Below are positions 7,738-64,000 of a DNA stretch of 64,000 bases, piece after piece. The translations under genes and the position numbers were made by a program. The notes below the pieces were generated by a model. That model searched no databases and was not told where the DNA came from. It saw nothing but the letters and a program-made list of their open reading frames with translations. The number at the start of each line of letters is the position of its first letter. The stretch's first letter is position 1. This DNA is from Bryoerythrophyllum caledonicum (lineage: Eukaryota; Streptophyta; Bryopsida; Pottiales; Pottiaceae), in NCBI GenBank assembly GCA_963971425.1, contig OZ020514.1, positions 45,041,527 to 45,105,526 of the forward strand, in the 5' to 3' direction.

Positions 7738-7740
7738 AAT

Positions 7741-9111
7741 TTAGTAATGAAGGGGGTCAATTACCTTACTTGCCAGCACCAGCTTGGAGCCACAATAAAC
7801 TCCGAAAACTCTGCTCGCGGGCTTGTAGAAGGCTGATAGGAGCTCAAGGTAGAACTCCATCCGCAACTCGTAGCCATGAACTGCGAAGCATGCTTCCAAA
7901 TACTTATTTTTTTTGGTGTAGTATGGAGAATCCACGGCAGAGTAATTTTGATTAACCATCTTTAGTAGCGAAGGAGACTCGGGATGGTCGTCCCTTATGA
8001 GGAATAGAAGGTAAACCTCATAACACTTCGACCTTGATGTCCCTAAATTGAGCCTCTCGTATGCGGAAGGCATGTACCTTGACTGAAGGCACACATATTT
8101 GGACATCCTTCTCTCCGCATTCTTTTCAGCTTGCACCACTCGCTGCTCAGAAGAGGTTATCCACACCCAAACAGTGGGAGAGTTTAGGGTGGATTTGCTT
8201 CTCTGCGTCTTCAAGGTCTTTGAGAAACCCCGAGAAGTAGGGCTCTTCGGATGAGTCCTCCTTGGAAGACCACCCGGGGACCTGTCGAAGGTTAAGGAGA
8301 CCAACGGACCACTCTCTGTCCTCCGCAGGCGGATCAAAATATTCGGAGAACTCCATTTTCTCCCCATCAAAATTGCAAAGCTTTGATGGTCCAACAATCG
8401 GGTCGATGTGGCTCTTCACGTACAAAAACTTCCGAAAGAATAGAAACACGTTTGGAAACGTCTCCACCAACTGAGATGCTCGTTTAAGCTTCCCAGCATT
8501 TGTCAGCCTCATGGAGAAGAACTCCTTGTTGGGCTAGACAAAGAGCATATTGTACGTCGCAAAAGACACACAGTGTTCTTGCTTCCACGCTTTCCACACC
8601 TTGTTGTTTGTGGACCTGTCTCGCATCGAAAACTTCAAGGAATGATCAATTGCGATCAATTCCTGAAGGACAATGTGCTTCCTCTTTCCGCGATCTGCCC
8701 ACTCCTCGTAGTGATAGCAAGACCCGTGAACAACACTTGTCCGCCGGAGCGTGACTTTTGGGTATCCATTTGGGCCTTCACTATCAACCAAGTAGGTGAA
8801 CAAGTCCCGTAAGTCCTTATCGGAAAGGTGGCCCAACCTCTTGAAAAATTCACGATGGATGGGAGAGGCTCTGAAACCTCTAGCCTCACTATACATGACC
8901 ATCCTGTCCAGGTTGATGATCTCGCCTTTTGTGTATTTTCGAGAAAATCTTTCCACAGCTTGAAAACTTCACCAGGCAATGAGATCACCTTGATCTTGTT
9001 CGTGATGTCTGACCACTTGTCCACCTGCTTCCCTTCCTTTGTGGGGTCGATGTTTTGGAAGCGGTTCAGGATAAGTTTGGAGAACAAGTGCAATACAGGA
9101 AACCCACACAT
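7741..9111 (-). pseudogene. Element C gene, central conserved part (unknown family)
   Basis: One frame is open from 8956 to 8147, interrupted only by a TAG at 8534-8536. It reads EARGFRASPIHREFF, LSDKDLRDLFTYLVD, then FPNVFLFFRKFLYVKSHID and SVGLLNLRQVPGWSSK. Near 8150 the coding signal moves to another frame: AEKNAERRMSKYVCLQ, NQNYSAVDSPYYTKKNKYLE, GVYCGSKLVLASK, ending at a donor near 7763. The upstream piece (9111-8957: KQVDKWSDITNKIKVISL) is again in another frame. The composition is that of a folded, charged protein without transmembrane segments. I recognise no domain. The lesions imply a pseudogene of a repeated element-borne gene. Confidence 0.5.
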
Positions 9112-26011: not shown

Positions 26012-28740
26012 TTATAATTCGAACCTGGCAAGTGCTTCCAAGGAGGCCTTGATAATCGCTACTTGACCCTTTGGAATTTTTGTAGTTGATTCTTGTACAT
26101 GACCTCCATCCCTCTTTGAAGACCTAGGTTTCCATGCTGTCAAGATTGAATCGGTACTCTTCCAAGTTATGGCTATCCCCATTTCAACTACCCAGCAAAG
26201 ATTGCAATTTGTATCCCAATCTTTATAGAACTTCAGAACATCCCGATTGCACGATATAGGGCGGAAGAATTGGATACGGACGGTGTTTGGCATATCTGGG
26301 TTAGAGTTAGGATCTGAAACTGCTTGAGCAATCCAAAATGGGCGCTCGTCTCCATCACAAGGCCGCAATGCAACTAAATAGCCAGCAAAAAGATCACGAC
26401 CAACTCTAAAAGAAGGAGGTGGATGATCGCGTCTCTGGCCAACAAAATATTCATCTTCAGAATATTCCTCGCGAACCTCACCCTTTGCTAAGAACTCATC
26501 TTCAATGGCATGGGCAATTCGCGTCGTTGGCCAAAAGCCGTCTTTTAATGATATCGGCGTATCCATTGGAAGAGTCAAAGCATCTCTATCGTTGCGCCAA
26601 CAGTAGGATAGCGGCTCAAAACGTGATCTCGCTTCAACAGACTCCCGCGATGATTGTTCCCAGTAATCGATGAATCCTGAAAGTCCCTTCACCCCTGAGG
26701 AAGATGCCGCATCATAGAAGGCTTCAATGCATTAGGTTCTCCGCGAGGCCATAAAGTTCTTCCTTCAAAATCCTCCTTCCACAATTTGTTGCCACTACCT
26801 TCTCTTCCCTTAGGAAGCCAATCTTCATCATGACAAAGGATTTTATACTTCATTACCGGATAACCACTTGAGTCCACATAAAACTTGAACTGATGAGCCT
26901 TTGTATGACCCTGCAAAGCTTCATCATCGTCTGCAATCATATCTCCAATGAACTTCTTAAAGTCAGGAACCTCTTGGATGAAATGCGGGATTGTGGGAAC
27001 ACTCTCATTTTTCAAGAATGACCTCATGAGCAAAGGAATGGTTGGAAAACTCTCCTTCCTCAGTGTCGTACTCCAACGTCCAAATAATGCATCTATATCA
27101 TCATGTGTATGACCAACTAGCATGAAATTAACATCTACCTCACGAAAGATGCGTTTTGCAACAAGGAGAGACCAATAACAGAAAACAAATCTAATTTTGT
27201 TATCACCAACAACATTGTCCATTTGCACTTTCAATATTAGAGGCAAAGGCTTCTTGGAACTGGGATACCTGGAATCGGCCTTAATGGATCCAAACACATC
27301 TCCGCACCCTGTAATACCGCCGCATACAATGGATGAGAACTAGATTCTAGAAAGAGTTGCCAGGACAATGATTTCAGAGGCGCCTCCAGGTCAAGCAATA
27401 GTTTTGCGAGCAACCCGACCATGTACTTGGCATCATGGGAGTATAAATCAAGGCCGTACTGGGCATAACACTGGTCCACATAACCATAGGCAAGCATGCC
27501 TATGACTGCAAGAGACAACTTGAGAAGCCCATCTAAGTGCTTTGTTTTATGTGAAAAAACCGGGGAGGCGGTCTTTGAGTGATCCATCTTATCATGCATG
27601 ATGGTTAGAACCTCCTAGGGCGACGACTTTGATCGAAATCAGTTCAGGTAGTACAATTCCCGATGTACAAAAGCAAAATCGATGTAGAACTGCATCTTCT
27701 TTTGCCTTAGCAAGGATGCTTGTGTTCCACGTTGAGTAGGCTTCTTGTGATCTTAGTATTTGTCACACGTAGAACAACGGGCAAAGTTGTCTTCTTCGCA
27801 GACTGTGGGTTGCCGCCAATCTCAACCTCAAACTACGGGCAAAGATCATCAAGAAGAGGTATCTGATTCTTCCACTTAAAACTTGCAAGGAGGACCTTTG
27901 CCACAGCCTTCTCGCCAGATGGGAGAACTCGAGACTTGTGAGGCATGTGGTTCGCATGTCTATCGAGGATGGCTCCAAGCGCGGCAGTAGCCACAACCGT
28001 TTGACCTCTTGGCTTACGCAAATCGGTATTCCCGTGGTGTTAAGCGGCAGCGTCCTTCACATTCCGACAGAAAGTACTCAAACTTACACCCATGATTTTC
28101 ATCCAGGCATGGGCACAAACGTCCACACCCTCTAGAGTCACAACCTTCCTACCCGCAGCGTTTCTATGAAACTGTCTGTGAACGTCGAGTTTGATATGAT
28201 TTTGAAACTGCACGATGGTCTCACTGTACAAGTGCGTCCGGAGGACTTTTATTTTATCTCTAAGGTAGTGTTGAACACAATTTTGAATGCAACAACTATT
28301 GCTCGCAACTGCATTAATGGAATGAGGGGTCATGAGGAATTCAACATTCCTAGACATTGTTGGACGTGTATTCCTTGAGGAATTGTCGTACAAACGGGAG
28401 CTCCCACCTAGAGGTTTGTTACGTTCAACCAACCAGACATTGTAAACGTCCCAAAGGCAACGATGGAAGAGACTCACACCGTTTAAAAAGACTTGTTGAA
28501 TTGGTCAGGACTTAAACGAGAACCTCCATTCATCAGGATCTTCCTCCTCAACAAAAGTACTGGACACCTGTACTACAATATTAGAATCCCCAAGAGGACT
28601 TGAGGAACCTAGAATTTGCATTGGACCTGACATTGCGAACGAACCCATCTGCAATGCAAACACCCAAACCATTGTGAAGCGAAACAACCATCCCGACCCA
28701 GAGACGACGAGGAATAACATCAAAGTCAGAATGGTTTGGG
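26012..28740 (-). pseudogene. DUF7869-type protein of element A, frameshifted
   Basis: Minus-strand pieces run in family order. An N-terminal piece is WVGMVVSLHNGLGVCIADGF (about 28690-28630). Then come GRKVVTLEGVDVCAHAWMKI (28170-28110), HDKMDHSKTASPVFSHKTKH (from 27597), and ILKVQMDNVVGDNKIRFVFC followed by VNFMLVGHTHDDIDALFGRW (27240-27080). The C-terminal part is RPFWIAQAVSDPNSNPDMPN (26370-26310). The QMDN and GHTHDDID signatures identify the DUF7869 domain, found in repeated, probably element-encoded proteins; its biochemical role is not known to me. Lesions include an in-frame TAG at 27615-27617 and shifts near 28480, 27290 and 26690. The upstream palindrome array lies at 28.89-29.29 kb. 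Confidence 0.8.
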
Positions 28741-29921: not shown

Positions 29922-30015
29922 TCTTAGGGTTAGGGTTTAGGGTTTAGGATTTAGGATTTAGGGTTTAAGATTTAGGTTCAGGTTTAGGCCTTAGGGTTTA
30001 GGGCCCTTGGTTTAG
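29922..30015 (+). repeat. Interstitial telomere-like (TTTAGGG)n array
   Basis: About a dozen degenerate units of TTTAGGG (TTAGGGTTTAGGGTTTAGGA..) run in one direction. TTTAGGG is the plant-type telomere unit. The divergence and the internal position point to an old interstitial array rather than a chromosome end. Confidence 0.85.
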
Positions 30016-30675: not shown

Positions 30676-32421
30676 TCAAGATAAATCAAGGTGGGGGAAG
30701 AATTTAAAGGGGGTCTTGTGTATCGGGGAGGATTTGGTTGTTTTCGATTTTGCGTTTATGTAGAAGAATGGACATGGCATGTTGAATAGCAATGGTGTTA
30801 ATGTTTTAAAGGTGGTTTTAATTGTTTCAATGGGAATTTTGAAGACATTTTCAAGAATATTCATAGAGAGGATAAAGGAGGTAGCACGAGCGCCAGATGT
30901 TATTACAATAAGGGGGTCCACATTCCACCCGAGAGCCATGATGTTGTCAATAAGGGGTTGGTATTTATCAATTTTATTTTGGATTGTTTCCGGGGAAAAT
31001 CTATCGTTGCAATATGTGAATTCAATGAATTGAATGGTGTAATCTTGGTTGATGTTATCGGGTGGTGGGTCGTTATATGGTAAACCTTTAACACAAAGAA
31101 TGTCCGGTTTGAGCCGAGCGTTGCAATGACATCTTTGGGTCATACATGAGCATGGGAGTAGCCAAGCGGGGACTGTATTTTCTTGTTGTTTGTTATTGAA
31201 AGTGCATGTGTTCATTAGTATAAAACATCTCGATTTTTTGTACGAGGTGATTAGTTTTCGGATTTCCCATACCGCTTTATTATGTCTTTTAACAATAAGA
31301 GAATGTATGTGATGGTTTTGGCATTTGAGTAGAACATGAAGCCATGTGTCGGGGTTCGTTGAGGGGCATATGGGGCATGTTATGGATGGGAATCTTTCTA
31401 TTCCAAAGAAGAGTTGTTTGCGAGCGTTTCCCATATACTGACCAGTACGGAATTTGATGAGGCATGTTATTTGCGAGTCTGAGATGTTGGGGTTTTTCCA
31501 AAAGTTTGTAGAGAGTTCATTGTCTATGTCGTTATTGTTAGTCCATTTTCCTATGTTAGGAATATTTTCTGAGATTGTATCAAGGTTGTTGTATAGGTCT
31601 TGTTTTTTCAGATATTTGCCCAAAAATCTAATTGGGCCTTTGTCAGGGGTATCTTCTTTGGAAGGCCATTCTTCTTTTTGAAAGTAGTATGGGGTAGCAT
31701 GGGCATGCTCGTGTGGGTCTTTGGCATTTTTGTGTGATTTTTCTCGGCCTTCTTTTGCTAATTTGTCTGCTTGTTCGTTGCCCTCAATGTTGGCATGAGC
31801 TCTCACTTCATGGAGGGTTGTGATTTGTGTACGGTTTTGTAACATTTGGACCATTGATGTTAATATAATTTGATCGGGGTGGCTATTATGAAGGGTAGGG
31901 TGAGTTATTTGAGTGTTTAGTAGGTAAAGTGCATTTATACAATCGGTGAATATATGTGCAGGTTCATTTTTGTATTCTGTTGTGATGATTTGTAGTGTTT
32001 TGTGAATGGCCATGAGTTCAGCTCTGAGGATATTTTGTAGTCCATGGAGTCTTTTGGCTAGTTTAATTTCCTTGGTAGAGTTATATATGCCATAGCTAGC
32101 TTTTTCTCTGCGCCAGGAGCCCGGGCTAATTTGTTCGGGTGGTATAAAGGAGCCATCAGTGTAATAGCTGTGTGCGGGATTAAATTTTGGTGTGGTATGA
32201 GTGGGGTAGTCTGGAAGATGGGGAGGTGTAACGGAGTAGTTTATTGTGTTGTTGACATAATTTAGTTTTAACCGGTTTTTACTTTTGTTTACAGGGGTTT
32301 GTGTGGGTTTGGTGGGGCCAGTTTTGTGTATGGTCGCTGTATGTCTAGATTGTCTGTTATAGAGTTGAGTTCCGCAATTTGTTCGAGGGAGCCAAGGGTT
32401 TGATTTTGATGATGGACGCAT
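30676..32421 (-). CDS. LINE ORF2 C-terminal part: RNase H domain and Cys-rich tail
   Basis: A 581-codon frame carries a complete RNase HI signature: YTDGSF (first Asp), ILRAELMAI (Glu), IFTDCINAL (Asp), and VRAHANIEGNEQADKLAK (final His/Asp segment). RNase H removes the RNA template after first-strand synthesis. After it comes a C-terminal region with CPICPSTNPDTWLHVLLKC, a C-x2-C..H..C knuckle typical of LINE polymerase tails. The frame differs from that of the RT block upstream (overlap 32289-32421), so either a mutation or a programmed shift separates them. I favour one ancestral ORF2. Its coding strand is strongly depleted in G. Confidence 0.85.
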   Translation of the reverse strand: MRPSSKSNPWLPRTNCGTQLYNRQSRHTATIHKTGPTKPTQTPVNKSKNRLKLNYVNNTINYSVTPPHLPDYPTHTTPKFNPAHSYYTDGSFIPPEQISPGSWRREKASYGIYNSTKEIKLAKRLHGLQNILRAELMAIHKTLQIITTEYKNEPAHIFTDCINALYLLNTQITHPTLHNSHPDQIILTSMVQMLQNRTQITTLHEVRAHANIEGNEQADKLAKEGREKSHKNAKDPHEHAHATPYYFQKEEWPSKEDTPDKGPIRFLGKYLKKQDLYNNLDTISENIPNIGKWTNNNDIDNELSTNFWKNPNISDSQITCLIKFRTGQYMGNARKQLFFGIERFPSITCPICPSTNPDTWLHVLLKCQNHHIHSLIVKRHNKAVWEIRKLITSYKKSRCFILMNTCTFNNKQQENTVPAWLLPCSCMTQRCHCNARLKPDILCVKGLPYNDPPPDNINQDYTIQFIEFTYCNDRFSPETIQNKIDKYQPLIDNIMALGWNVDPLIVITSGARATSFILSMNILENVFKIPIETIKTTFKTLTPLLFNMPCPFFYINAKSKTTKSSPIHKTPFKFFPHLDLS

Positions 32422-35333
32422 AGTATTTGTAATGTAGATGGCTCGATTTGGGGTTTTCTTAGCTTAGGTGGAATAGTAGGTTCTTCGTATGGTATTGTGT
32501 CTGCTTCAAATAATGTAATGATATGGGAATCTTGAAATGGGTTTGAGTGTGGGTTGTTGTTTTGGTACCAGTTGTTGTTCGGTGTGATGATGATTGTATT
32601 TGTGTTATTTGGATCATGTTTGGCGGCAAGTCTAGCCCAATGTATTGCTTGTTCCATATCTTTCTCGTTGTGGGGGTGAGCTATACCATTGCCGATCCAT
32701 TTATAGTCAAAGGCCTTTCCTAGGGATCCGAATATTTTGTCTCTTTCATAAGGTGAGTAGAATTTTTTTAGTTTAGTAGAACATGTGACCGGGGAAGAAA
32801 AATATGATTGTTCAATGTTAAAGGATGAGATTAATGAGTCTAAAATGGAAGTGGGTATTGTATATTGTGCATTTTTTAGGGGGTCAGTTTTCAGTATTCG
32901 GTATTTATACCTTTGGTATAACCAGATTAGTTCGGTTTCAAAAGGTTGGGTCGTTGGTTCAATGTTAGTGGGGGTTTGTAATTTTGTATTGTATTGATTC
33001 CATAACCATTGGAGTCGAGTAATGGGGATGGTGTGTAAGTGTCGGCCATTTTCTTCATATAGATGTGCTTGATCGTTATCTATTATAATTGTGTTTGAGG
33101 GTGTAAGGATATCTTTTTTGGGGTTGCATTCTGTTGTGTAAATGTTTAAGAGTGGAATAATTATGGGTGGTGTTACAGATCTTGAGTCTGAAAGTTGTTC
33201 TTGTGGGTGGTGTGCTTGGATGATTTCTGAGCATGTTTTGTTTTGGGTTTTTTGGTAGTATTGTTTTAATTTTTGGGTGTTGAGTGTAGAGGTATTAGTG
33301 TCGTGTCTTGGAAATAGGTCTCTTTGGTGGAGCCATTTATTGTATGTGTTATCATTGTATTGCCATTGGCATAAATATTTTGTGTAGGTGTTTTGTATGT
33401 TATTTGTGTCTATGTGTTGGATATGTTTATGGCGTATGATGTTATTAATGGGATATATGGTAGGGTTTTTGGAGATGTATGTTGGAGGGCGGGGATGGCA
33501 TGTATGTGGGGGATTAGGGGGATTGATTGGTGTGAAAATATTTCTTGGGATGATGCTATTGTTGGGGGTGATGAATGGATCCTTAAGTATTTGCGAGTAT
33601 GGGTGTATGTTACAATTAGTATGACATGTGGTGGGGCATGTTGGGTGGCAAAATATTTGTTTAGCAACATTCAAGGCACTTTTTATTAGTTTAGTTGGAG
33701 TGAAGTGGTAGATTTTGAAGTCTACATAGTTCATGATGTGTGTGCCGTTAGGTAGAGTAATTTGGGTTAGTTCGAAAATATTTTTTGAGAGGAGTTTTTG
33801 TAGAAGCTTTTGGGAGAGTTGGGCATTGAGTGTGTTGTGGTTTAGTGTTTCTTGCCGCCATAGTGTTTCAAGTGTTGTAGGGTTAATGAGGAAGTTTGGG
33901 AGTGTGCTTTTAAGGTGGACTTTAGCTATATGTTTTAATAAGAAGAATGTTTGTGTTATTGGTGACCTTATACAGTCGGCTTTTTTAATTCTGGGTATGT
34001 TTTCAGCACCACCATATTGGGCAAGTATGTAATGAGTTAGTCCATTATAAATTTTTCCAAGTCTACCTTTATCGTTTAAGGCATTTTGTAGTTGTTCGCC
34101 TATACATCGAAGATATGCATTTTTTAGGGAGAAAGCTTCAAGTCCAAATAGGTTATGTGGGAGTTGTGTTATTGCATTTGACATACATTTTGGTACTCCA
34201 CATATGGTTTTTTGTATGGCGATTATTTTTTGATCAAGTTTTTTGATGGCTGGCATAAAGTATGGTACACCATAAAAACTGTATGCCACACCTGGGCGTA
34301 GTACGGTATCAACCATTTTTATTTTTTGTTTCATGGTGGCTGGACATGTTGTTAGTTCTTTGCATTGTTTGATGAGCTTTGTGGTTGTAGTGTGAATTTG
34401 GATTTTCCATTTTAGTGAGGGAACAAGATTTGTACCTAGGTATGTGTATGGTTTGTTTTGGTGTAGTATAGGGATTGGTTGGTTGCGGTAGTTGATGTTA
34501 GAGGTTTGCATTAGGGCTTTGAAAGTAGTAGGGTTCAATTTAGATTTGTTTGGGCATCCGGTAGCGGCACATTTTGGGACTCCCACATCCATGCCAGTCC
34601 ATTTACAATATCTATCAATTTTATTGAGTTGTATTTGGATTGATTTAATTTTGTTAGTTATGGTGGCTAGGTCATCCGCATATGCAGCGGAATTTATTGT
34701 GACTTGTGATGTGCCGAAAGTATATCCGTTATTGCCTCTTTCTAGCCATCTAAGTAGTGGTTCTAAAAATATAATGAATAGGTATGGGCTGAGGGTGTCC
34801 CCTTGTATGCTTCCCCTTTGGATGGGTATAGGTTTTGTTTTTCCAAAGTGTTCCCCGGTGTAGCAAGTAGATGATTGAGAATAGATGTTTCCAACAAGTG
34901 TAGTTGCCTCTTTTGGGTAGCCAAGGTCTGTCATTGTTGCTAGAAGTCGGGCGTGGTCAATTGAGCCAAAGGCATTTTTGAAGTCCACGTATAGTATGTA
35001 TATATCTTGGTTTGTAAATTTTGCGTCTTCTAGTGCGGCTATTATAGTTTGTATTTGTTGTGCGGTACTTCTCTCTGTTCTAAATCCTTCTTGACTATCA
35101 TGTAGGATTTTGAATTTTTCGCCGTATGAGGATAGTATGGAGGTGAGTGTACTGGTAAAGAGTTTATATATTGTGTTAGCTAGTGCAATTGGCCTATGAT
35201 TGGGTAGCATGGACGGGTTGCCTTTTTTGTATAATAAAATTGTTGTACTCGATTTCCATGAGTTTGGTATTTGTTTTTGTTTATAGCAGTGAGAGAAGAA
35301 TAGGAATAGTAGTTTATGAAATCTTGGAGGCAT
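32289..35333 (-). CDS. LINE ORF2: reverse transcriptase domain
   Basis: A 1014-codon frame contains the non-LTR reverse transcriptase: SWKSSTTILLYKKGN, HRPIALANTIYKLF, QEGFRTERSTAQQI, ILYVDFKNAFGSIDH, IQRGSIQGDTLSPYLF and the catalytic AAYADDLA. This enzyme copies the element's RNA at the nicked target. Downstream of RT is a long region (about 650 residues) rich in Asn, Thr, Pro and Ile that links to RNase H. The N-terminal RT motif (NNKAPGPDRIPNSIL) lies in another frame upstream, so a frameshift exists near 35330. All main catalytic residues are visible. Confidence 0.92.
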   Translation of the reverse strand: MPPRFHKLLFLFFSHCYKQKQIPNSWKSSTTILLYKKGNPSMLPNHRPIALANTIYKLFTSTLTSILSSYGEKFKILHDSQEGFRTERSTAQQIQTIIAALEDAKFTNQDIYILYVDFKNAFGSIDHARLLATMTDLGYPKEATTLVGNIYSQSSTCYTGEHFGKTKPIPIQRGSIQGDTLSPYLFIIFLEPLLRWLERGNNGYTFGTSQVTINSAAYADDLATITNKIKSIQIQLNKIDRYCKWTGMDVGVPKCAATGCPNKSKLNPTTFKALMQTSNINYRNQPIPILHQNKPYTYLGTNLVPSLKWKIQIHTTTTKLIKQCKELTTCPATMKQKIKMVDTVLRPGVAYSFYGVPYFMPAIKKLDQKIIAIQKTICGVPKCMSNAITQLPHNLFGLEAFSLKNAYLRCIGEQLQNALNDKGRLGKIYNGLTHYILAQYGGAENIPRIKKADCIRSPITQTFFLLKHIAKVHLKSTLPNFLINPTTLETLWRQETLNHNTLNAQLSQKLLQKLLSKNIFELTQITLPNGTHIMNYVDFKIYHFTPTKLIKSALNVAKQIFCHPTCPTTCHTNCNIHPYSQILKDPFITPNNSIIPRNIFTPINPPNPPHTCHPRPPTYISKNPTIYPINNIIRHKHIQHIDTNNIQNTYTKYLCQWQYNDNTYNKWLHQRDLFPRHDTNTSTLNTQKLKQYYQKTQNKTCSEIIQAHHPQEQLSDSRSVTPPIIIPLLNIYTTECNPKKDILTPSNTIIIDNDQAHLYEENGRHLHTIPITRLQWLWNQYNTKLQTPTNIEPTTQPFETELIWLYQRYKYRILKTDPLKNAQYTIPTSILDSLISSFNIEQSYFSSPVTCSTKLKKFYSPYERDKIFGSLGKAFDYKWIGNGIAHPHNEKDMEQAIHWARLAAKHDPNNTNTIIITPNNNWYQNNNPHSNPFQDSHIITLFEADTIPYEEPTIPPKLRKPQIEPSTLQILCVHHQNQTLGSLEQIAELNSITDNLDIQRPYTKLAPPNPHKPL

Positions 35334-49099: not shown

Positions 49100-49450
49100 T
49101 ACATATTTTGAAAATCCTTTTAAAATTCAAAAGAATTTTATTTCACCTTGTAAAATACTTAACCACCAAGAGAAGTAGGGAGTCTAAAATGATTGTTTGA
49201 AGAAGTGGAAATACTCATTGCACACACATCAACTCGATTTTTAGCAGAGGTGTGCCCCATCACTACGTGCAATGAAGTAAAAGGAGTTTGTGCACACACT
49301 TTAGCTCTAATAGTGCTAAAGTGTGCCCCATCACTAGGTGTAGTGAAACAAAAAGAAAATACGCACAATTTAGCTCCACTTGAGCTAATTTGTGCACCAT
49401 CACTAAATGTAGTGGATTAGAAAGCAAAAATGCACTATGTAGCTCCACGG
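49100..49450. repeat. Palindromic 69-bp tandem repeats, left side of element B
   Basis: Units with TTTAGCTC..TGTGC.CCATCACTA start near 49300, 49369 and 49438 (69 bp apart). The block starting AATTCAAAAGAATTTTATTTCA matches the 25.43-25.71 kb block next to the DUF7869 gene in sequence, order and orientation. This places the two genes in related elements or in elements sharing a target or end sequence. Confidence 0.75.
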
Positions 49451-49465
49451 GGAATGCTATTTTGT

Positions 49466-49514
49466 GAGCAATGAGCAGTGAGCGGTGAGCAGTGAGCGGT
49501 GAGCAGTGAGCTGA
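49466..49514 (+). repeat. 7-bp tandem repeat GAGCRGT, 7 units
   Basis: GAGCAAT, GAGCAGT, GAGCGGT, GAGCAGT, GAGCGGT, GAGCAGT, GAGCTGA directly follow the 69-bp palindromic repeats and may be derived from their GAGCTAA arm. Confidence 0.85.
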
Positions 49515-50592
49515 AATATCTTCCTTTGTGAGCAGAAATAAGTGAGTTTAAAAACAAGTTTGTGTGCTTAAGACATTTTTTTTAGCTCACAAGAGGGCCT
49601 ATGGCCGTGGATTATTTTACACTATAATGATAGTGTTGGATTAAAAAAAAGGATAACTTGCTCTAGTTTCAGAAAATATCCTATGGCCGTGGATGAAAGG
49701 CCTCGCATTCTCATTATTATAGAAATCTCAGATTTTGTGTGTTAGCATGATGTATAGTGTACTTGAACGTTGATTTACAGACTTGGAATTTTGGATTTAG
49801 AGTTTAGGGTTTACAAAATCAAGATTGTATCTACCCTATGCTATGGTCAGTTTCGTACATAATTAATTCAAAATGGGGACTTGTCCAAAATTTTGGAAAT
49901 TTCAAGAGGTTTGGCTAGGCGATATCTATGTAATACCAAGGTGACACCCGTGCAAGATCTAGGTGATACTCGTGCAATAACTATGTGATATCCATTGTGT
50001 CGAATCAATGTAACAAAAATAAATAAATGCTTTGGCACTTGCCTGCCGAAACTGACCGTAGCGTACGGTATATTGTTCATTTTTTACTTAGCCCTACAAA
50101 AACTACGTCTTCATTGTGGAGTATAGATAAATATATCTATAGATTTTTAATATTGAAAAAGTCATGTATGTATTTGCTCATTATAAAACAACTCATTTAT
50201 TTGTTTTGAATGTATTTTTGTATGTACGATTTACGATACAAGCAATATAGTATATGTTGTTCAGTGCACATTTTATAATCCAGCCTTGCCTTGTATATGC
50301 TACTAAATTCAGATCCATTACTCAATGACAGACTAGTAGACTAATCAATCTGATAGATTTGCACGAAGTTACAAATTGGAATATTAAGTTTAAAGTTGTG
50401 ATTCATGTGGTACATTATTCCGTGTCCAAATAGCTTATAAGAGGGTAGCAAACTAAAGGGCATGTTCCAATTTAAATTTGAATGGGTACAATGAAAGCGT
50501 TTACAAGATGAGCATCCATTTTGGGTTGGCTTTAGCTGGACTGGCAAATAAGATTTTACTCAATCAGAAATGAAAATGAGTACACAAAACAA

Positions 50593-52799
50593 CTACTCCG
50601 TGTCATCTGAACTACCCTCGCTTTCATTACCAACCTCTGCCTCTACCTCCACATAACGGAGTACGTTTTTGTGATACCTCTGCCGCTGACGTGTTGGTGG
50701 AGGAGATTTCATAGTTGATTGTATCTCCACAGGTATCTTAGCCCAGATAGGTAAAGAAAAGGAAGAATCTGGAGATGACAGTAGCGGCAGAGCTCTGCAA
50801 ATAAACAGAGACACAATGAGGTTTAGGGTTGAAATTGATAACGTACTAAGATTTTAATAACAACGATGAAAAAAAAATTTGGGTTGAACTTACGTACAAG
50901 AAGGAATACGACTGCTTTTTTGCTCTTCTGTGGTGGTCCTCCTTGAGTACGCCGCAAGTTCTTCCTCCTCTCCACTACCAATTCCGTAGCTGTCTTTGGA
51001 ATTAGCAGTGCGAGCAATGACTGAAAAATATCTGAGTCTTCTTCGAAAGCCAATACATGTCTGCCCATTGATTGACACACCTGAATAGTTGGACCTAGAT
51101 AATACATATCAATACAAAAGATAAATCAGAAGTGAAAAAAATAAAGAAATAAAGTATTGAGCATATATATAGGAATGCTTACCCGTAGAGGCATTCCAAT
51201 CTAAGACAATATCCCCAACTTCTGTGAGGGATTCAAGAATGGTTTTCATGAGATCAACCGCTTTCTCACGAGCCCCTCGCCATGGTGTGTCGCCATGCGT
51301 AAGCTTTGAAGCAACGTTCACCAAATTGAACAAGATATCGAGCTCAACAAGTGGAGAGCGAACAAAGAATTTTGAGATGATGGGAGAGTCACGAACAAGA
51401 TATCAAGCTCAACAAGTGGAGAGCGAACAAAGAATTTTGAGACGATGGGAGAGTCACGAACAAATAGTTGAACACAGAATCGCGTCCCCTGAGAAAGAAA
51501 CAATATACAAAATTATGGATTAGATATAGTATGGAGAAGCTTAAGACTATAGCTAAAAAATATCAAAAAATTGTTTATAATACTTATTGTTGCAGAAGGA
51601 TCTCGAGGCAATGCTAGAGGAAGCTCATTCAATGCCCACCAATCGATGAGTAGCTTGAAGTCGTATGTGGAAGCACATTCATCAATTTCAAGTTGTAGAT
51701 CTCTATCATTCGGATGAAGCAGAAGCAAAGCAGCGTTGTCGTGAAGATAATTGTCAGCGAACTCAAAAATAGTATCAATATTATTTTGTGGCCTTGAATT
51801 CCACAAAGGAATGGCATCAATGGATTGAGAGATCCCACGCACTGGTAAATTCTCTGGAATGTCAGCCACAATAAGATCCAATCTAGTGTGCTTGCAATTG
51901 TCATTTGAAACTTTCCACGTTCTACCTGCACCAACCTGGAAGCAAAGAATCCAATGGATGTAAAAAAATCCGGTTCAGTGTAATTTAGAGAATTCAAAAT
52001 CAAATGAGGATAACAAAGACTGACCTTTGAAATGAACTGATGTAGCTGCTTCCATAATTGCGGTGGGCCTCCTGTCTCCGAGAGAGACTGCATGATAGAG
52101 AAGAGTGATATATTTTTTATGAAACACTCTGATGAGACAACTGGCAACGGAACAATGGAGGACTCAGAAAACTGAAACTGGCGTTGCTTGCGTTGTTGGA
52201 CTTCCAACCTTGTAATTTCAACAAGGCTTGAACCAGCGGCTTGAGAGGATGTCACGACTGGAGGAGAGTTCCATGCCAAGACCTCGTTCCTAGTCATATT
52301 TGTAGGATCAAGCATCAAGGAAAAATTCAAGGTGTCTCTCTCAGCAAGGGCGGCTGCAACTGCTGCTTGAATCTCAGCCTTCTTCGCAGTCTCCGCATCC
52401 CTGACAAGCTTTTCCTTGTCAGCTTTCGAAAGCCGCTTCTTCTTACCAGAGGTCTCCTCTTGAGCTAAAACTGGTGGGGACGACGACTGCTCTACAATTT
52501 CAACCTCCGACTCCCCTAGTGGAGATGAAACAGGCAATACTGAAACCTCTGTTTGACCTTGGAAAAGGTCTTTCTCTGCATCAGGAACAAAATTGGCTGA
52601 GCATTCCAAATACCATCCACCACCATGTAAAACTTGAACGGAATACTTCTTCTGAACCTCTGTAAAGACGCACAAGTCTGATGAAGGTTGAATCCACGGC
52701 GACATGAAAGAAGGACATACGGATGATTGAAGAGCATTCTTGGGCAACAACTCTCTAACAATATACCTGCACACATCATTTTTAATTGGATTATAAACC
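50593..52799 (-). pseudogene. Element B gene, 3' half: basic coiled coil plus beta-class DNA methyltransferase domain
   Basis: Exons are defined by GT..AG ends and matching phases: 52799-52025, 51935-51584, 51488-51183, 51094-50894 and 50792-50593. The first encodes VYNPIKNDVCRYIVRELLPK, then a Lys/Glu/Ala-rich helix (SGKKKRLSKADKEKLVRDAE). The next reads LDLIVADIPENLPVRG, which stands where motif IV (DPPY) is expected but has DIPE, then ALLLLHPNDRDLQLEIDECA and LIDWWALNE. The following exon has TPWRGAREKAVDLMKTILES and VGDIVLDWNASTG (motif I, normally DxFxGSG), and after splicing MGRHVLAFEEDSDIFQSLLA (motif II). The order IV then I is that of beta-class adenine-N6/cytosine-N4 DNA methyltransferases. 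The last exon ends SEGSSDDTE-stop. A 65-bp duplication (51332-51461) breaks the frame. Catalysis is doubtful without DPPY. Confidence 0.65.
51332..51461. repeat. 65-bp tandem duplication inside the methyltransferase exon
   Basis: 51332-51396 and 51397-51461 are near-identical 65-bp copies. Removing one copy restores the coding frame between VRSPLVELDIL and FNLVNVASKLTHGD on the minus strand, so the duplication is a recent lesion (or an assembly error) and not part of the protein. Confidence 0.85.
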
Positions 52800-52858
52800 C
52801 TGAAGATACAATAATCCTTTGAATGTAGACAAAATTGGAAATTAAATAGATAACACAC

Positions 52859-53825
52859 CTATATAAGAGCCGTTTAATGGCAAGATCACCACCCATCAAC
52901 TCATTCAGCTTTGAATTCTTTTGAAAGAGCGATTTTAAACCCGACTAAACAAAGATCATATATCCTTTCTCCCAAAAAATCATGCCCCATTTCTCAACAT
53001 AATCAGACGGCTTTTCAATTCCAGGGGAAGCCTCCCAATTAACTAAGATTGTACTTGTTGCACAAATATCTTCAAAACAGCAATGAATTTTGCCTCTAGC
53101 TGAAACCAATCAATATATGAAGTTAGATGACATTCTTAACCAATATGATAATTACTACTACCAAATATCAAGTAATGAGCAGGAAGTGAGATATATTACT
53201 TGTGCCCAGAATGTAGCGCGATTAAGAAACGAATCAAGAGCGCCATCTCTGAACTGGGAAGGTGGAAAGCGGAAAGCAGAACGAACAACTAATGGCGAGT
53301 TCCACAAATGAAGCCACATTGCTTTGAAATGGGGCTCAACTGCAGATGTTGGAATTTTTTGAAGTTTCTCAATTGTCATTTCAGTCTTCTTAAAATGTTT
53401 GAAATGAAAATTGATCTGCAAAATATGAATCCGAAATTTAACTATTAGAAAATAGAGTTGAAATATTATTGGCCAAATAATGTAGTGAAACTAAGATTAA
53501 TGAGAATAATGTACAAAGAATATACCTCATCAAAGAACTCGTCGCCATTACTGGGATTTGCAACAGCAAGGTATTTTTGAAAGTCCTTGCTTTTTATGGA
53601 CTTCACAGTGCTAGCCACATCATCGCTCATGACCTTCCACACGCCTGTTGCACTTCTCTCCTCTTTAGGTGTTTTTTTTTCATAATCCATGGCAGCCTCA
53701 TCTGAAGCGCGAGCAATGTCTTACTGCAAGACAAATGAAATTAGTAATACGAAGTTAAAAAAAAAAAAATAAAAAGACATAGTTCATAAAAATCATGAAC
53801 ATAAAAGGAGTTTGTATATCATACC
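52859..53825 (-). pseudogene. Element B gene, middle exons
   Basis: Three exon-like blocks have good splice ends: 53723-53526 (MDYEKKTPKEERSATGVWKV on, ending FFDE before GTATAT), 53415-53200 (INFHFKHFKKTEMTIEKLQK on, ending FWAQ before GTAATA), and 53099-52859 (ICATSTILVNWEASPGIEKP on, with one TAG before SGLKSLFQKN, ending LLYR). They link the ParB-like part to the methyltransferase part. The first starts with an in-frame TAA and the third needs a frame change relative to the second, so the copy is damaged. I recognise no domain in this section. Confidence 0.5.
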
Positions 53826-55134
53826 CGATACAAGAACGAAATGAAAACATCAACTGTCAACGGAAACCAAGCAGCCCGTGACCGTCGAACTTTTGTGCAT
53901 GTATTGTAGTCTTCAGATGTCAAGAGGTCCTTGAAATCTTCCAATTTCAATCCACCATAATATCGTATGCGTTGTAGTTTTGCTGGTAAGCTAGTCTTCA
54001 CAAAATCATTCTGTGTAGACCTACATGATCATACATAAAGAGATAGATTAATCCAAAATTACTACACTTATAGAAAGAGTCATAGAAAAATAGGAAGAAA
54101 GATCAAAAGTTGAAATAATTACCAATTGACATCGTGCATACAATTAAGTAATACTGAAATCTGGCCTATTGGATTTAGCACGATGCTCCGGACGGCATAA
54201 TGCCAATCAAGGTCATCTGAATGTCGCTCAAAAATATAACGCCACCATGCATTGAACCTATGATTTCCGTCCCAGACAAAAAACATTTTGCCACTGAGGA
54301 CGGCTAACTCTGGAGTCGCCTTTAAGAACTCTTCAAACTTCTCATTTGCTGCTATCCAATGTGAGCTCCAAGAAGACATTATGTCAGGTGTAACCTCACG
54401 CGACATCTCACGGTCATCAAAAATTAAAAGGTAGAATGCGCAATCTCCATCAATATAGCCCCCTTCAAAACGTTTCTGCAATGCACAAACGTCAACTTCT
54501 TGAATTGGCCGGACTCGAGGAAGGGCAATCATCCTACAAAGAGGCACATGAATGGGTCCCTTCGTAACACGCATGCTTTCAAGAACGGTCACAAAATTAG
54601 ACTTCTGATGAAGTTGTCTTGCTTTTTCACCCTCATGAGAACTAATCAGTCCTTCAGGGCATTTTGGTGACGAATCCTCGGAGTCTATTGAGGGCACGTT
54701 CTACAAAATCCAACCATAAACATTAAGACAATAATAACATAGAGTGATAAATCCAAATAACTGATTGCAAGAATAGTTTGAGAGTTACAAACCTGAGTGT
54801 TGGGAATGTCATCAAGAGCCTCGTCATCCTGAGTGTTAACCTCTTCCTCCTAAGAACAAACAAAAAATAAGGAATTTAGAACAATTTTTTTTTTTGAAAT
54901 ACACATATATATACAAAATAAAACCTTCTACCTCTCGTACTTTCACAATTCAAGAATGACAATGTAGTGAACCAACATCTTTTAGTGCAAATAGGCAGTT
55001 CAATAATGAGAAAGAGTATAATATAAAAAACTAGCTTCCTGCAAGACCACCTCATCACTTGAAGCGCTTGCTATGGGTTGTGATTCCTGGATCGCGTTCT
55101 CCTGTACAGCTCCGCTTCCTTGGCCAAGTTCATC
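53825..55134 (-). pseudogene. Element B gene, 5' half with ParB-like domain
   Basis: Four exons join in phase: 55134-55051 (DELGQGSGAVQENAIQESQP), 54849-54793 (EEEVNTQDDEALDDIPNTQ), 54700-54123 and 54020-53825. The acidic start is followed by a domain beginning IHVPLCRMIALPRVRPIQEV, then YLLIFDDREMSR and KMFFVWDGNHRFNAWWRYI. The spacing of RVRPIQEVD and the GNHR-x2-AW motif fits the N-terminal ParB/sulfiredoxin-like fold, in which the GxHR motif binds nucleotide. ParB-like domains fused or adjacent to DNA methyltransferases are familiar in bacterial phages and mobile islands. Here the gene is intron-rich and eukaryotic in structure. The gene's 5' end is not certain. Confidence 0.55.
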
Positions 55135-55190: not shown

Positions 55191-58100
55191 GGCCTCGTGT
55201 ACGAGGCCTTAAAAACGTTCACCTATTGAACCAGGATTCAATCTAGGTGGTTTAGGGTGCCACGCCTACGAGGCATGGTTGTTAAGCTGAATCGAAATTC
55301 CTGCAGGGGCCAACCAAAACAATACACTCATCCGAGGACTCATGTCCCACCACGTGGTGCCCCCATCATGTTCTCGCGACACACAATCGTTCCCACCTTA
55401 AAAGATATAATAAATCACTCACTTTCCCGTTCAGTTGCTTCGAGGAGGATATAACCGGTTTCAGGTGTATGCAATGTGATACTACACCGCTGGAGGAACC
55501 ACATCCAGGACTTTCACCGAAGTCAGCTGCTTCGAGTTTAGAGTTCATAAATGAGGCCTCGTATACGAGGTTTTATTTTTACTTACGAACATTCTTCCTG
55601 CAGGGGCCAACCCGAACAACACATCCATCCCAGGACTTAAGATCCACCAGGTGGCTTCCTAATCATGTTCACACAACACACAAAAATTTCCTCCTTCAGC
55701 CCCAAAAAACACTCACATTCCCGGTCAGCTGCTTCGAGGATGACATCACCGGTTTCAGGTGTGTGCAATGTGATACTACACCGCTCGAGGACCCACATCC
55801 AGGACTTTCACCAAAGTCAGCTGCTTCGAGTTTAGAGTTCATAAATGAGGCCTCGTATACGAGGTCTTACTATTACTTACGAACATTCTTCCTGCAGGGG
55901 CCAACCCGAACAACACATCCATCCGAGGACTCAAGACCCACCAGGTGGCTTCCCCATCATGTTCACACGACAAACAATAGTTTCCTCCTTCAGCCCCCAA
56001 AAAACACTCACATTCCCGGTCAGCTGCTTCGAAGATGACATCACTGGTTTCAGGTGTGTGCAATGTGATATTACACCGCTGGAGGACCCACATCCAGGAA
56101 TTTCACCGAAGTCAAAGCAACCCATAGACACCGACACCCTGTTTTAGTGTCCCTCCATGACCTCACGTCACTCAACACTACCCATCTTTAGCCCCAAGAA
56201 ATTTAGACTTTCTTGATTAGCTGCTTCGAGATGCATAAAGACCACACTTAGGTGTGTGCAATGTGATACTATTCCGCTGGAGGACCCACAGTGAAGGATT
56301 TACACTAGTACCATAGATTCGGTTAAGGAATATGTGAAGAAGGCCTCGTATACAAGGTCTTCTTTTTTCTCACGTCAACACATCCTGCAGAGGCCAACTT
56401 AAACACGCTACCCCATCCGAGGACTCTTGTTCCACCACGTCGCGCCCCCGTTCATGACCTCACGTCACTCAAGCATACCCACCTTTAGCCCCCACAAATA
56501 CTGACTTTTCCGGTCAGCTGCTTCAAGGAGGAAATAGACCACATTCAGGTGTGTGCAATGTGATACTATTTTGCTAGAGGATCCACAATGACGGATTTAC
56601 ACCAGTAGCACAATTAAGGTTACGGAGTATGTGAAGGAGGCCTCGTATACGAGGTCTCCTTTTTACTCACTTCAACACATCCTGCACGGGCCAACATACC
56701 CTTCCAAGGACTCATATTCAACCACCTGATTGCACTGTCGTCGTTCATAAATGCCCAAAGATGCCACATCATGGGTCACACGATTCTCATGCACCATTAA
56801 ATTCAAGTCGATATTGATACAGGTCCTTCAAATACTGTTCATATGATCATGTGATTTCAGCTCCACTACCCCACTCAAACAAGTCCGTGAAGGAGACCTC
56901 GTATACGAGGTCTCTATTTCTCACGTCGACATCTACTCATAACGCCCAAAATTCAAGGTTCCTCTAGATGCCGCGAAGTACTCACCAAAAATACCCGGCT
57001 CGTTAAGAATGTAGATCAGGTGCTCGAACGGATCATCGTCAAGGGATATAGATTGTACTCAATCCAATTTCCAGACTTGTTCAAGCCTCAAGTTGTCCAC
57101 AAAGTTGTCCACAACACTGGACACGAAGGGTCGCAAAGCTGTCCACAAAGCTGTCCACAAAGCTGTCCACGAACTAACCAACTCGTTACGAATGTAGACC
57201 AGGTGCTCGAACGGATCATCGTCAAGGGATTTAGATTGTACTCAATCCAATTACCAGACTTGTTCAAGCCTCGAGTTGTCCACAAAGTTGTCCACAACAC
57301 TGGACACGAAAGGTCGCAAAGCTGTCCACAAAGATGTCCACGAACTAACCAACTGATTTTCCCTTCCAGCTGCCTCGAGGAGGATATAAACACTGATTTT
57401 TCCATCCAACTGCCTCGAGGACGATAAATATCGAGTGCAATGAAATACTACTCCGCTGGAATACCAAGATGGATCACTGACACCAATGTCAGTGATCACG
57501 ATGTTGGATTCAGAATATGCCGCCCATCTGAGATCATATCCACCAGCATGATCACGATGATGGAATCTGCATGATCCCTCGGCTCCGTCAACCACCTCTA
57601 GACATTTTCATAAGTGACGTGTATGTGATGTCATACACTAGCAGAGCCCCCACGGCTCGTCAGTAATACGCACTGGTCAGTAATACGTCACAAGTCGATG
57701 ATACGTCACAAGTCGATGAAGGAAGCCTCGTATACGAGGTCTCTACTCACTCCTGTCGATGTCGACATCTACAAATAGGTACGACCCTAAACTTGTTCCT
57801 CTAGTTGCTGCGAAGTACTCTCCAACCATCCGGTTTATGTCTCACCATTCAACCATTTACGGTGCTCGCCGACCTACGGAGAGGCTTACGGTGCTGGCGA
57901 GCACAACCTCTAAACACGGCATCCACGTCCCAGCACCAGAAACCAAGTGCTCCATCTTTCAGTGACAGTTCGGCACCAAGTGACAATTGTTCTCAGTGAG
58001 GAAGTCCACGCTATCAGAACCGTCATAGAGGTTGTCCACGCAATCGGCACCAAGTGCCAATCCAACAAGTCGGTGAAGGAGGCCTCCTACACGAGGTCTT
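55191..58100. repeat. CCTCGTATACGAGG palindrome array, ~295-bp repeats upstream of the element B gene
   Basis: Copies of (G)GCCTCGTATACGAGGT start near 55191, 55555, 55849, 56342, 56639, 56895, 57724 and 58081. The 55555-55849 and 56342-56639 units are 294-297 bp. Within units TCCTGCAGGGGCCAACCCGA, CCGGTCAGCTGCTTCGAGGA and GTGTGCAATGTGATACTAC recur in the same order. The 14-bp core is a perfect palindrome in most copies. Plus- and minus-strand open frames here are repeat artefacts. Confidence 0.85.
57002..57353. repeat. 183-bp tandem duplication within the palindrome region
   Basis: GTTA.GAATGTAGA.CAGGTGC through GTCCACGAACTAACCAACT occurs twice (57002 and 57185). It contains the 12-bp subrepeat AAAGCTGTCCAC (three copies in the first unit, fewer in the second). 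Confidence 0.85.
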
Positions 58101-60678: not shown

Positions 60679-60687
60679 AACACAGAC
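60679..60687 (+). promoter_or_regulatory. TATA-like box before the MULE-type transposase gene
   Basis: TGCTATAAACACAG lies about 110 bases upstream of the preferred start codon at 60791, with CT-rich sequence following. Confidence 0.35.
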
Positions 60688-60790
60688 GCCGCCTTTCAAT
60701 GAGGTCCCTTTTTTTACTCACTGGTTGTTCTTCATAATCCCTGCCCCTCTCCGTATTCCATCACTCTTGCAACCCAATCTTGATATCTCC

Positions 60791-63700
60791 ATGGCTTTTT
60801 CTATTCCATCGGCATTGTCTTCCATGGCCATTCTACGTGCCGTTGGAACTGGCTGTTCTATTGCCTATCCTTTGAACGAGGAGGGTTTTGCTACTGTTAC
60901 CAGTGCTGCGTTAAGTATTCGATTTTGTTTTCAGAAGAGTATTTGTGTCGAGGAGGAGGTCTATGACGATGATTGTTTGTCTCTGCTTTACACCATACCA
61001 AATCCGCCCATAGTGAAGGATATATTTGAGAAGGAATGGAAACTTGGCAAGGGTCGGTATAGAGTATATGGTTGCATAGATTTACAGATTAATTTGTCAT
61101 CGGTTGATCTTACCCCTCGTCAGTCCACAACGTGTAGTATGCAGACTCCTCCTCAACTTGGAGTGGAGGTCAAGATTGAGCCCGGCACTGAGTCAGTCAT
61201 CAATCTCTCTTCAGACGACGAGGACACTGCGCCTCCTTTGTACCCCCTGAAGTTAAGTGTCCCTATGTCGTGTCGTCGTCGTCCCGTTACGCCAACTTAT
61301 CAACCACCCAAGTCTTGTCTCCCAAAAGAGCAAATGATTTCTGGTATTGTCAGTGTTATCGCCGGTCTGAAGAGGCTGTCCACCCATGCCGGCGGCAAGA
61401 ATCCGCTGAAGACACTGATCTTCAACGCCATTCTACACCGGCAAGTGAGCTGTCTTCCCGCCGAGTTCAACCATGATGCAATATTCGAACTGCCGCCCGC
61501 CCCACTAACGGAGTCATCTACTCAAGCACGTAACATGTATGGGATGGACAAGCGATATGATGGACACGTCTCGACAAAGACGATCACGACAAACATCATC
61601 AACGACGACGGCCTGCACTTTCGGACTTCGAAGTGTGTCGGTCATCTGCAATGCGACAACGTCGACTGCATGTACCTTGAGCAAGTTAATCGAATATCGG
61701 ACGTGAACGAGAGAAAGTTTGAAGGAACGATTGCGATGACTTTAGAGGCCGGTCAGAGAGCCCCTAAAATCACGCTACTTTGCAAGATCTGAGGAGTTCC
61801 ACCAACATGTATTGCCACGTGTGATGCTGTGGTGTACTACGTTTTTGGTAAGCGCAACTGCACCCGTGCATGTATTCACTTAGGCGTACACGACCATCCC
61901 GTTGAAATAGATGATTACACTGATGTAAAGGAGAAGATCACTAGTCTAATTAGTGAGCAGGTAGAAAAAACTCCGTGTGCAACCAAAAGTGCCATCATAT
62001 TGGAGGCGAGGAAGGAGCTCCTTGGATAGTTCTTGCTCCGCGAAGAAGGCGACCCCCGGAAGATCTTGACTGTGGAGGAGTTAGCTCCCTTCTTAGACAA
62101 ATGCAAAGACATGGGTTCTCCAAGCATCCGAAACAAGGTGGTTACATTCCGGTACCTAAAGAGGTACGGTGTCATGGACGCCAAATTGAAACTTCGCTCG
62201 GTGAGTACCTGGGCATTTGTGCAGAACAGCAAATTCCCAAGTCAAGGTTCGGAACATGCTGTGGGAGAAGAATACAAGGTCTTCATCTTCAAGATGTCAG
62301 AGGTCGGGCCGGGATCTGACGTTGACCTTGTGAAGCGGATGCAACCGGGCAATGATCTGGATAATGCGTGGATGATGTTCGATCACGTCAAGCGCCTGAC
62401 GGACTGGACAACAATAGGATGTCACGTCTACGACGCTACGTACTACAGGGTGATGACCATCGCTATCAGTGACTTGATGTCGGAGGATAAGGATGCTCAG
62501 ATGCTTTTCTGGAATAACCTCAATGATGTCATGCGTCGACACGGAGTGAAGAAGCCGGACTTCAAGGGATTCATGGCGGACGGTGCTCAGGCCAATAGGA
62601 ATGCGGTAAGAGCTGTCTACGGGGGTGGCGACGTCATGGCGGACAAGGAGCGTACATGCCTATTTCACTATATGTAGAGTATGATCAAGTACACAGAAAA
62701 ATGGATTGTTGAGGAATTTCAAGAGCAGCACAAGAGCCTCGGTAAACAATATAGGGAAGCAACAACTATGGAGGACGCTGACCGATTGTATGACGCGCTT
62801 CAGGCATGGTACATGATATCAGGAGCTGTGTCTGAAAAGGGGCTTGAGGCCATGTCAAACTGGATTGCATGGTGGCACTTTAGGTACCGTCAATGGGGCG
62901 GGTTCATGACCTTGGTATGGCATGCGCACTCTTTCTCTCAATATTGATCACTCTTACTCCATTTCTTTCTTCGTCCTTGGTTCCTGACATTATCGTTCAA
63001 CTTTTGCAGAATATTTCCATTGACGAACTAGCCGAGATGCCTTCTTGCAACCTAGCGGAGACCGTGCACAACAAGTGGAAGCAAGCCTCTGGGGACCAAG
63101 GGGCAGACCCATACGTCGCCACTGTAGACGACTACATCCACAGATTCTTGCAAGTTGTTAACTACCACCAATTCCTGAAAGGCGATGTTGGTGGGACCGG
63201 ACCTAGCAAAGAAGAAGTGAAGCTTAGGGTGGCCAAGAGAAAAGCTCAAAGGACAGGCGACACCAGTGTCCTGAAGGAGTCCATGTTGCAAATGCCCGAG
63301 GCAGAGGAATTCTGTACCCGCACAACAAACAAGGCTGGGGAAGAGGTGTTTGGTTCACGGAAGCGTAAGCCAAACATGCCAATTGGTGCCGATGACGAGT
63401 CACATCAACCGGATAAGGTGAATTTTTCTCGCCCTCGACATTCTGTAGGACCCTTGGGAACTTCTTCAGATCCACTGCCCATTATCAATGAAGACGGTGG
63501 CATTGGTGATGACGACGGTGTCTATGCCGACGACGACGTCCTTAAATATGATGTCTATTATGTACGACCGGCACATGTGTCACCAATGGCGACTCTGGCT
63601 CGAAGAGCTGGTTTGCGGCGCGTCACAGCGGTGGAAGAGACTCATGCTGAATTGACAGAGTGGCATATCGCCCACTTGTCAAAGAATTCTGCCAAGAAAT

Positions 63701-64000
63701 GTTTTGAGCAACGCACAAAAACAAGGACAAAATGTGAAGAGAGGATTGTGAGAGGTGGAAAGGCAACCCTGGCACCAACATACACAGGTTTTTACCATCA
63801 CCCGAAGAAGAATGTCTTGGAAACCATGGATTTCTACTTCTGCAATGATGACATCGAAAGGATACGAGGCGTGTGTGGGTGGTTCAATACAAGAAGGGCG
63901 TCGATAGGCCTCCGATCCCGGACGTATGGCCTGTCATAGTGGGTACTAATCTGACCCGTGGGGAGATTGAGGATCTGGAAGCGACTGGATTTCAACTCCC
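60791..64000 (+). pseudogene. MULE-type transposase with Cys/His zinc-binding N-terminal domain (runs off window)
   Basis: One frame runs from 60725 to 62947, broken by stops at 61790, 62027 and 62675. I prefer the ATG at 60791 (CCATGG context). After an acidic/Ser-rich N-terminus comes a zinc-finger-like segment (CVGHLQCDNVDCMYL, then RNCTRACIHLGVHDHPVEID), as in FLYWCH/GCM1-WRKY fingers of MULE transposases. Next is the DDE domain: IGCHVYDATYYRVMTIAISD (first Asp), FKGFMADGAQANRNAVRAVY (second Asp) and TCLFHYM (C-x2-H before the helical insert). A new frame after an acceptor-like TTTTGCAG (63009) reads DELAEMPSCNLAETVHNKWK and an acidic C-terminal region. Near 63900 another shift leads to PPIPDVWPVIVGTNLTRGEI at the edge. 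It moves DNA elements by cut-and-paste. This copy is inactive. Confidence 0.75.

Follow-up and report, generated by a model that had tools for sequence, protein, structure and literature searches.

A 64,000-nucleotide stretch of the Bryoerythrophyllum caledonicum genome (Bryopsida; contig OZ020514.1, positions 45,041,527 to 45,105,526; hereafter the window, numbered from its first letter) carries a spliced gene that belongs to a 15.8-kb DNA transposon family. The gene is predicted to join a segment bearing a ParB-type motif to a permuted DNA methyltransferase fold. We found the element and its copies, a match to the methyltransferase fold, family-wide substitutions in the methyltransferase motifs, selection on the protein, and a sister family in the same genome that keeps an aromatic residue where the window family has glutamate. 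On balance we favour the explanation that the window holds a decayed copy of a transposon accessory gene, the working protein of which would combine ParB-like DNA binding with a non-catalytic methyltransferase fold and would regulate or shield its element.

A transposon family with copies across the genome

We searched the genome (437 Mb, 894 contigs) with window positions 52000-53000 as the query. Scoring covered 40 of the 97 candidate places, the window's own included, and the others were 77-97% identical to the query; 20 of the 40 were fetched at length (L254-L273), and two copies were read to their right ends. The left terminus, GGGGAATGCTATTTTGTGAGC, stands at the end of similarity (window position 49449) in 18 of the 20 fetched copies, where the flanks before it differ by eye, and is absent from the stretches fetched for L256 and L264. 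Target-site duplications were examined in two copies: the 10 bp are perfect in the window copy and agree at 9 of 10 positions in L255 (TGTACACTAT and TGTATACTAT). The ends are weakly inverted, the inverted right end sharing 29 of 42 positions with the left end and 13 of 21 in the outer part. These ends, duplications and copies bear out the proposal, made in an earlier sequence-only reading of the window, that a eukaryotic transposon carries a modification module of bacterial type within a spliced gene.

The same reading had described the gene as flanked by palindromic repeats. The palindromes at 55192-58097 are far more frequent than expected (nine matches with at most three mismatches; mean 0.07 expected), but they are confined to one side of the gene, within the element, and are therefore not its flanks. 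As candidate terminal repeats they were ruled out on the same grounds. Separately, the ~235-bp insertion at 49834-50068 appears to be a small element now travelling inside the larger one.

A permuted methyltransferase fold in a broken gene copy

The gene occupies 12 exon-like open pieces on the minus strand, from 55134 to 50593, with GT/AG borders in most (Table 1). Its parts are ordered as an acidic start, the DGNHR segment, a long middle with a basic stretch, the methyltransferase-like region and an acidic tail. The division into exon-like pieces and both acidic ends are as first described; for the basic coiled coil proposed alongside them there is a basic, coiled-coil-like stretch in exon 8, recognized by eye. 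The intact exon-joined protein that was assumed does not exist in this copy: the window copy is broken by two in-frame stops, by the loss of a splice donor and by a 65-bp duplication that shifts the frame, and the full protein cannot be made. Among readable copies, the exon 5 stop is private to the window and the exon 7 stop is common only with L254, while the exon 9 donor reads AT in the window copy and GT in the 19 other readable copies. A tblastn search for a paralogue in the rest of the window found no similarity.

At the level of sequence profiles, a permuted beta-class methyltransferase fold was confirmed. Motif IV precedes motif I, as the sequence-only reading had claimed, and PF01555 (Pfam N6_N4_Mtase) matches at the motif I end with 31.5 bits (cut-off 26.7; E 2.1e-7). 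Compared with a profile of 50 phage relatives, the joined region matches end to end at 36.9 bits in HMMER (E 7.2e-11; best of 500 shuffles 2.5 bits) and with a probability of 97.4 in hhalign. The window's single open frames gave weak matches to the phage profile before joining (exon 10 best at E 0.0025, exon 11 at 0.14, exon 9 at 3.5). In tblastn, 195 phage records matched the joined region at E of at most 1, the spans from motif IV to motif I among the matches listed having E 0.004-0.2. Close relatives were sought in virus and prokaryote scans and none was found.

The phage set came from 80 viral loci, from which 51 open frames were read and 50 kept by an AD[IPV]PY filter. Because of this filter, and because the loci were partly found by an ADIP pattern, the frequency of DIPY and the count of Tyr in the set are not independent observations, and Tyr ends motif IV in 50 of 50 relatives by construction. 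ADIPYN is the reading in most of these filtered relatives; DIP is therefore the usual state among them, and the window, with the DIPE first reported for it, departs at the final motif IV residue only. In the motif I loop, all 50 phage relatives have the first Gly, and the window has Ser in its place. Overall, the window keeps 33 of the 102 phage columns that are conserved at 90% or more. Neither the catalytic [DNS]-P-P-aromatic motif nor a Gly-containing loop (G-x-G) for S-adenosylmethionine (AdoMet) is found in the window family.

Family-wide motif states and selection

We compared the motifs across 21 copies, including that of the window. Motif IV is readable in 20 and reads DIPE in 16, DILE in 2 and NIPE in 2; none has an aromatic residue and all 20 have E at the fourth position, with the D kept in 18 of 20 and the P in 18 of 20. 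Motif I is DWNASTG in 16 copies, a one-residue variant in 3 and cut short in 2, and its first loop Gly is absent from all 21, with S, Y or T instead. DGNHR stands in 14 of 20 readable copies and one-residue variants of it in the other 6. Since these states are family-wide, the substitutions are older than the decay of the window copy. Collecting paralogues had been suggested as a way to look for DPPY; the family gave the answer above, and the sister family described below has DQPF.

Private decay of the window copy had been considered as the source of DIPE and was ruled out by the E in every readable copy. The wider account, an ordinary decaying pseudogene with odd motifs that are mutations of this copy, is highly improbable: the copy is broken and the account holds for its stops, duplication and donor, but for the motifs it is refuted, as these are family-wide in a protein under selection between subfamilies.

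Codon comparisons indicate that this selection is acting. We computed the ratio of nonsynonymous to synonymous substitution rates (dN/dS) by the Nei-Gojobori method for 11 pairs chosen from the 210 possible among the 21 copies, 8 of them between subfamilies. In these 8 pairs pooled dN/dS was 0.11-0.14 (943-977 codons each, dS 0.63-0.85), and exon 9 alone, which holds motif IV, gave 0.08-0.27; two exon 4 values were not computable. Exons are also better conserved than introns, the window being 84.1% identical to L265 in exons and 61.4% in introns, and 80.8% and 54.9% identical to L272.

The dS of the same pairs (L265-L273 against the window copy) is uneven along the gene: many values exceed 1 in exons 3-7, and in exons 8-11 they lie at ~0.2-0.9. 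The pooled ratio therefore combines stretches that differ in age. The gene looks mosaic, perhaps through recombination between subfamilies.

The ParB-like segment

Exon 3 contains DGNHR, a D-G-x-H-R type motif of the ParB/sulfiredoxin superfamily. The sequence-only reading had assigned a ParB/Srx-like domain here; the motif stands, and a ParB fold was not established by Pfam, profile or structure tests. Comparison of the segment with Pfam, PHROGs, NCBIfam and PDB sequences gave nothing above cut-off. Structure prediction, proposed as a check, yielded two single-sequence models of the ParB-like part with predicted local distance difference test (pLDDT) scores of 34.2 and 31.1, which are meaningless and establish no fold. 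A profile of YbdM only scored 15.6, under the maximum of 22.4 from 40 shuffles, and 15.5 with the family alignment. In hhalign, a 20-sequence ParB profile scored 18.7 against one sequence (shuffle maximum 20.5 of 60), and 21.6 and 20.9 against families (shuffle maxima 18.9 of 60 and 19.4 of 100); the reverse set-up of ParB profile and family gave 18.7, without a control. One alignment, A2, contains its second row twice, once shortened. When the 20-sequence profile was searched against the window's open reading frames (ORFs), exon 3 was not listed, whereas the 4 known ParBs kept out of the profile all scored 76-258. Matches in tblastn with the ParB-like exon were at chance level (four phage records, best E 0.05; one plasmid record, E 8).

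The missing database matches, the low-scoring models, the profile scores at or near those of shuffles and the unlisted exon 3 all speak for an alternative in which the N-terminus is not ParB, DGNHR arose by convergence, and a DNA-binding protein of methyltransferase fold carries an unrelated N-terminal part. We regard this as rather unlikely, given that the best register of the 20-sequence profile is the DGxHR motif itself, about 2.7 and 1.5 points over all 60 and 100 column shuffles, that the sister family retains the motif at 40% identity, and that a similar algal protein is called ParB-like in print in the portion of that report consulted (PMC12477816).

A sister family that keeps an aromatic residue

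Searching the genome with PF01555, with 150 of 235 candidates scored, revealed 8 further places (L279-L286) that form a sister family; where their methyltransferase exons match those of the window gene, identity is 35-43%. Of the 8, 7 can be read at motif IV and all 7 have DQPF, and motif I reads NASTG in 7 of 8 and NASIG in 1 of 8. One of the 8 copies was also read upstream. Its methyltransferase pieces, with a guessed join of two, cover 2-219 of the 221 positions of PF01555 (E 2.8e-8); upstream lie a ParB-like exon (40% identity, E 1.6e-38) with VWDGNHR, as well as homologues of exon 5 (E 4.5e-10) and exon 6 (E 1.5e-11), and exons 4, 7 and 8 have no significant match upstream in that copy. 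Finding ParB-like, middle and methyltransferase parts together in this copy suggests that the fused architecture is common to two diverged families, which differ in the motif IV aromatic. Paralogues with the segments in separate genes, which would have spoken against the fusion, were not seen: in this copy the parts stand together. With its aromatic residue kept, the sister family may still methylate.

The second gene and other features of the window

The element has a second gene, divergent from the ParB-like/methyltransferase gene, which is presumably a transposase of Mutator-like type. Mutator-like (MULE) transposons make target-site duplications of ~8-11 bp. We base the assignment on the 10-bp duplication, which falls within this range, on a SWIM-like C-terminus at E 0.3, below cut-off, and on motifs in the gene that we take to be Mutator-like.

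Table 1. Coordinates of the transposon and its parts in the window.
Feature	Position	Strand	Remarks
Transposon	49449..65210		15.76 kb; right end 1210 bp past window end (64000); one copy (L255+L274+L277) matches at 94-95% over full length
Left target-site duplication, GTAGCTCCAC	49439..49448		Identical 10 bp at 65211-65220
Left terminal repeat, GGGGAATGCTATTTTGTGAGC...	49449..49490		First 21 bp: 63 exact copies genome-wide, reversed control 0
~235-bp insertion with inverted ends, nested in element	49834..50068		Aligned through in L254-L257, skipped in 13/20, uninformative in 3
Exon 12, acidic tail	50593..50794	-	Exon 11/12 frames could not be joined
Exon 11	50893..51094	-	Methyltransferase region ends here
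Exon 10	51183..51488	-	Motif I (DWNASTG); broken up by duplication
65-bp tandem duplication in exon 10	51328..51463	-	Frame-shifting; single unit in alignments of 20 fetched copies
Exon 9	51584..51935	-	Methyltransferase motif IV (DIPE); splice donor lost in window copy
Exon 8	52025..52765	-	Basic, coiled-coil-like stretch (by eye)
Exon 7	52859..53095	-	In-frame stop; exon 6/7 frames could not be joined
Exon 6	53200..53415	-	
Exon 5	53526..53723	-	Stop at its opening in window copy
Exon 4	53825..54020	-	
Exon 3, ParB-like segment with DGNHR	54123..54700	-	dN/dS 0.08-0.11 in 8 between-subfamily pairs
Exon 2 (acidic)	54793..54849	-	
Exon 1 as modelled (acidic)	55051..55134	-	No start codon found
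Internal repeats: 294/297-bp units and GCCTCGTATACGAGGC-type palindromes	55192..58097		Between two divergent genes; aligned in L254-L264, not L265-L273
Second gene of element	60680..63936 (to ~64511)	+	Presumed Mutator-like transposase; in-frame stops here

Outside the transposon, the minus-strand ORF at 32289-35333 is LINE-like (long interspersed nuclear element), with a reverse transcriptase match at E 9.9e-29. Its frame also holds a match to PCIF1_WW (PF12237) at 45.6 bits, where the cut-off is 31.1. These domain matches identify the ORF as a retrotransposon with a PCIF1-like adenine-methyltransferase domain, of which we found no published report by title and abstract start. At 26689-27297, on the same strand, a DUF7869 match (E 1.6e-34) perhaps marks another mobile element. 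Open pieces at 6423-8533 (minus strand) resemble another spliced gene, one stretch looking by eye like a degenerate methyltransferase motif I; three of the pieces were compared with Pfam, and none gave a match that reached the cut-off. A TTTAGGG-type repeat occurs internally at 29924-30003, in about 12 copies.

Discussion

In the explanation that we favour, the product of a working copy would be a protein with a modelled length of ~1,100 residues. Its ParB-like part would bind DNA, most likely that of the element itself. The methyltransferase-like part would keep its fold and lose canonical catalysis, through the change of the aromatic to E in motif IV and of G to S in motif I, and would serve to bind DNA or a partner, in this way regulating transposition or protecting the element against silencing. 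That DIPE is family-wide makes a non-catalytic role plausible, and in this respect supports the earlier suggestion of a methyltransferase domain turned DNA-binding module; the binding itself we infer.

Several results weigh against this explanation. Constraint is weaker on the motif I exons: across the 8 pairs between subfamilies, dN/dS is 0.15-0.34 in exon 10 and 0.17-0.51 in exon 11. The 3 pairs of more closely related copies gave 0.55, 0.65 and 0.29. In-frame stops occur within exon matches in 16 of the 21 copies, and 5 of the 21 are free of stops in all exon matches. The N-terminal part is ParB-like by its DGNHR motif only. Beyond the SWIM-like C-terminus below cut-off, the second gene has no Pfam match, no MULE match and no PDB sequence match. 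Finally, altered motifs do not prove lost catalysis, and because the NASTG loop is common to the sister family it may bind AdoMet in another way.

The last points lead to the main alternative, that the family is a still active methyltransferase with a non-canonical active site (D-x-P-E, NASTG) that marks the DNA of its element. Purifying selection on exon 9 between subfamilies, the NASTG loop in the DQPF family, and the D and P retained in motif IV in most readable copies would fit an enzyme. We nonetheless consider it unlikely: the aromatic residue in such methyltransferases stacks on the flipped base, the loop Gly is invariant in the 50 phage relatives, and exons 10 and 11 are under less constraint.

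Several known systems share parts of this architecture. Phage beta-class methyltransferases with DIPY (Javan1, GMA4, Lrm1 and IMG/VR relatives) resemble the window gene in having motif IV before motif I, in the ADIP-N context and in the end-to-end profile match, whereas they are stand-alone genes that keep the Tyr and the loop Gly. The bacterial ParB-methylase Bce_0392, unlike the window gene, is not known to have introns or a long middle region. Like the window gene with its ParB-like part, it fuses ParB to an adenine methylase, as far as the partial text citing it describes (PMC5512222). The bdelloid N4CMT resembles the window gene as a PF01555 domain captured by a eukaryote in an intron-containing gene, but it keeps SPPY, is fused to a chromodomain and is a host gene that marks transposons; the parts of the report consulted state that this enzyme has no eukaryotic homologues (PMC8885841).

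Closest in design are the ParB-methyltransferase proteins already published from algal transposons, among them the accessory protein of Sola1-1_Ec32 from Ectocarpus, in which ParB and an N4/N6-methyltransferase form 1104 aa in a 21.5-kb element (PMC12477816, as excerpted). Both cases place a ParB-like part and an amino-methyltransferase in one protein of ~1,100 residues, in a giant DNA transposon and on the strand opposite the transposase, the ParB and transposase assignments being tentative in ours. The window element differs in its length of 15.8 kb, its 10-bp target-site duplication and its presumed Mutator-like rather than Sola affiliation. The window family has lost the motif IV aromatic family-wide; the Ectocarpus protein was compared by its description, and motifs are not among the features described in those excerpts (PMC12477816). 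By title and abstract start we found no published family with lost catalytic motifs, in searches not aimed at that alone and mostly not covering subscription papers. The category is known, and what is new is a selected variant with family-wide loss of the canonical motifs, beside a DQPF sister.

A bolder version of the favoured explanation, which we offer tentatively and with less confidence, is that a captured phage-type methyltransferase may have become a conserved pseudo-enzyme that binds its element and does not modify it, selected for transposition or against silencing, while the sister family may write the mark. If so, one genome could contain both a reader and a writer from a single lineage. 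A transposon with a DNA-modifying enzyme is a candidate for evading or directing silencing by its host. In this family, key residues are replaced throughout and the protein is selected nevertheless, which separates catalysis from whatever keeps the gene, and the presence of an aromatic-keeping sister family in the same genome makes the question of marking or binding directly testable.

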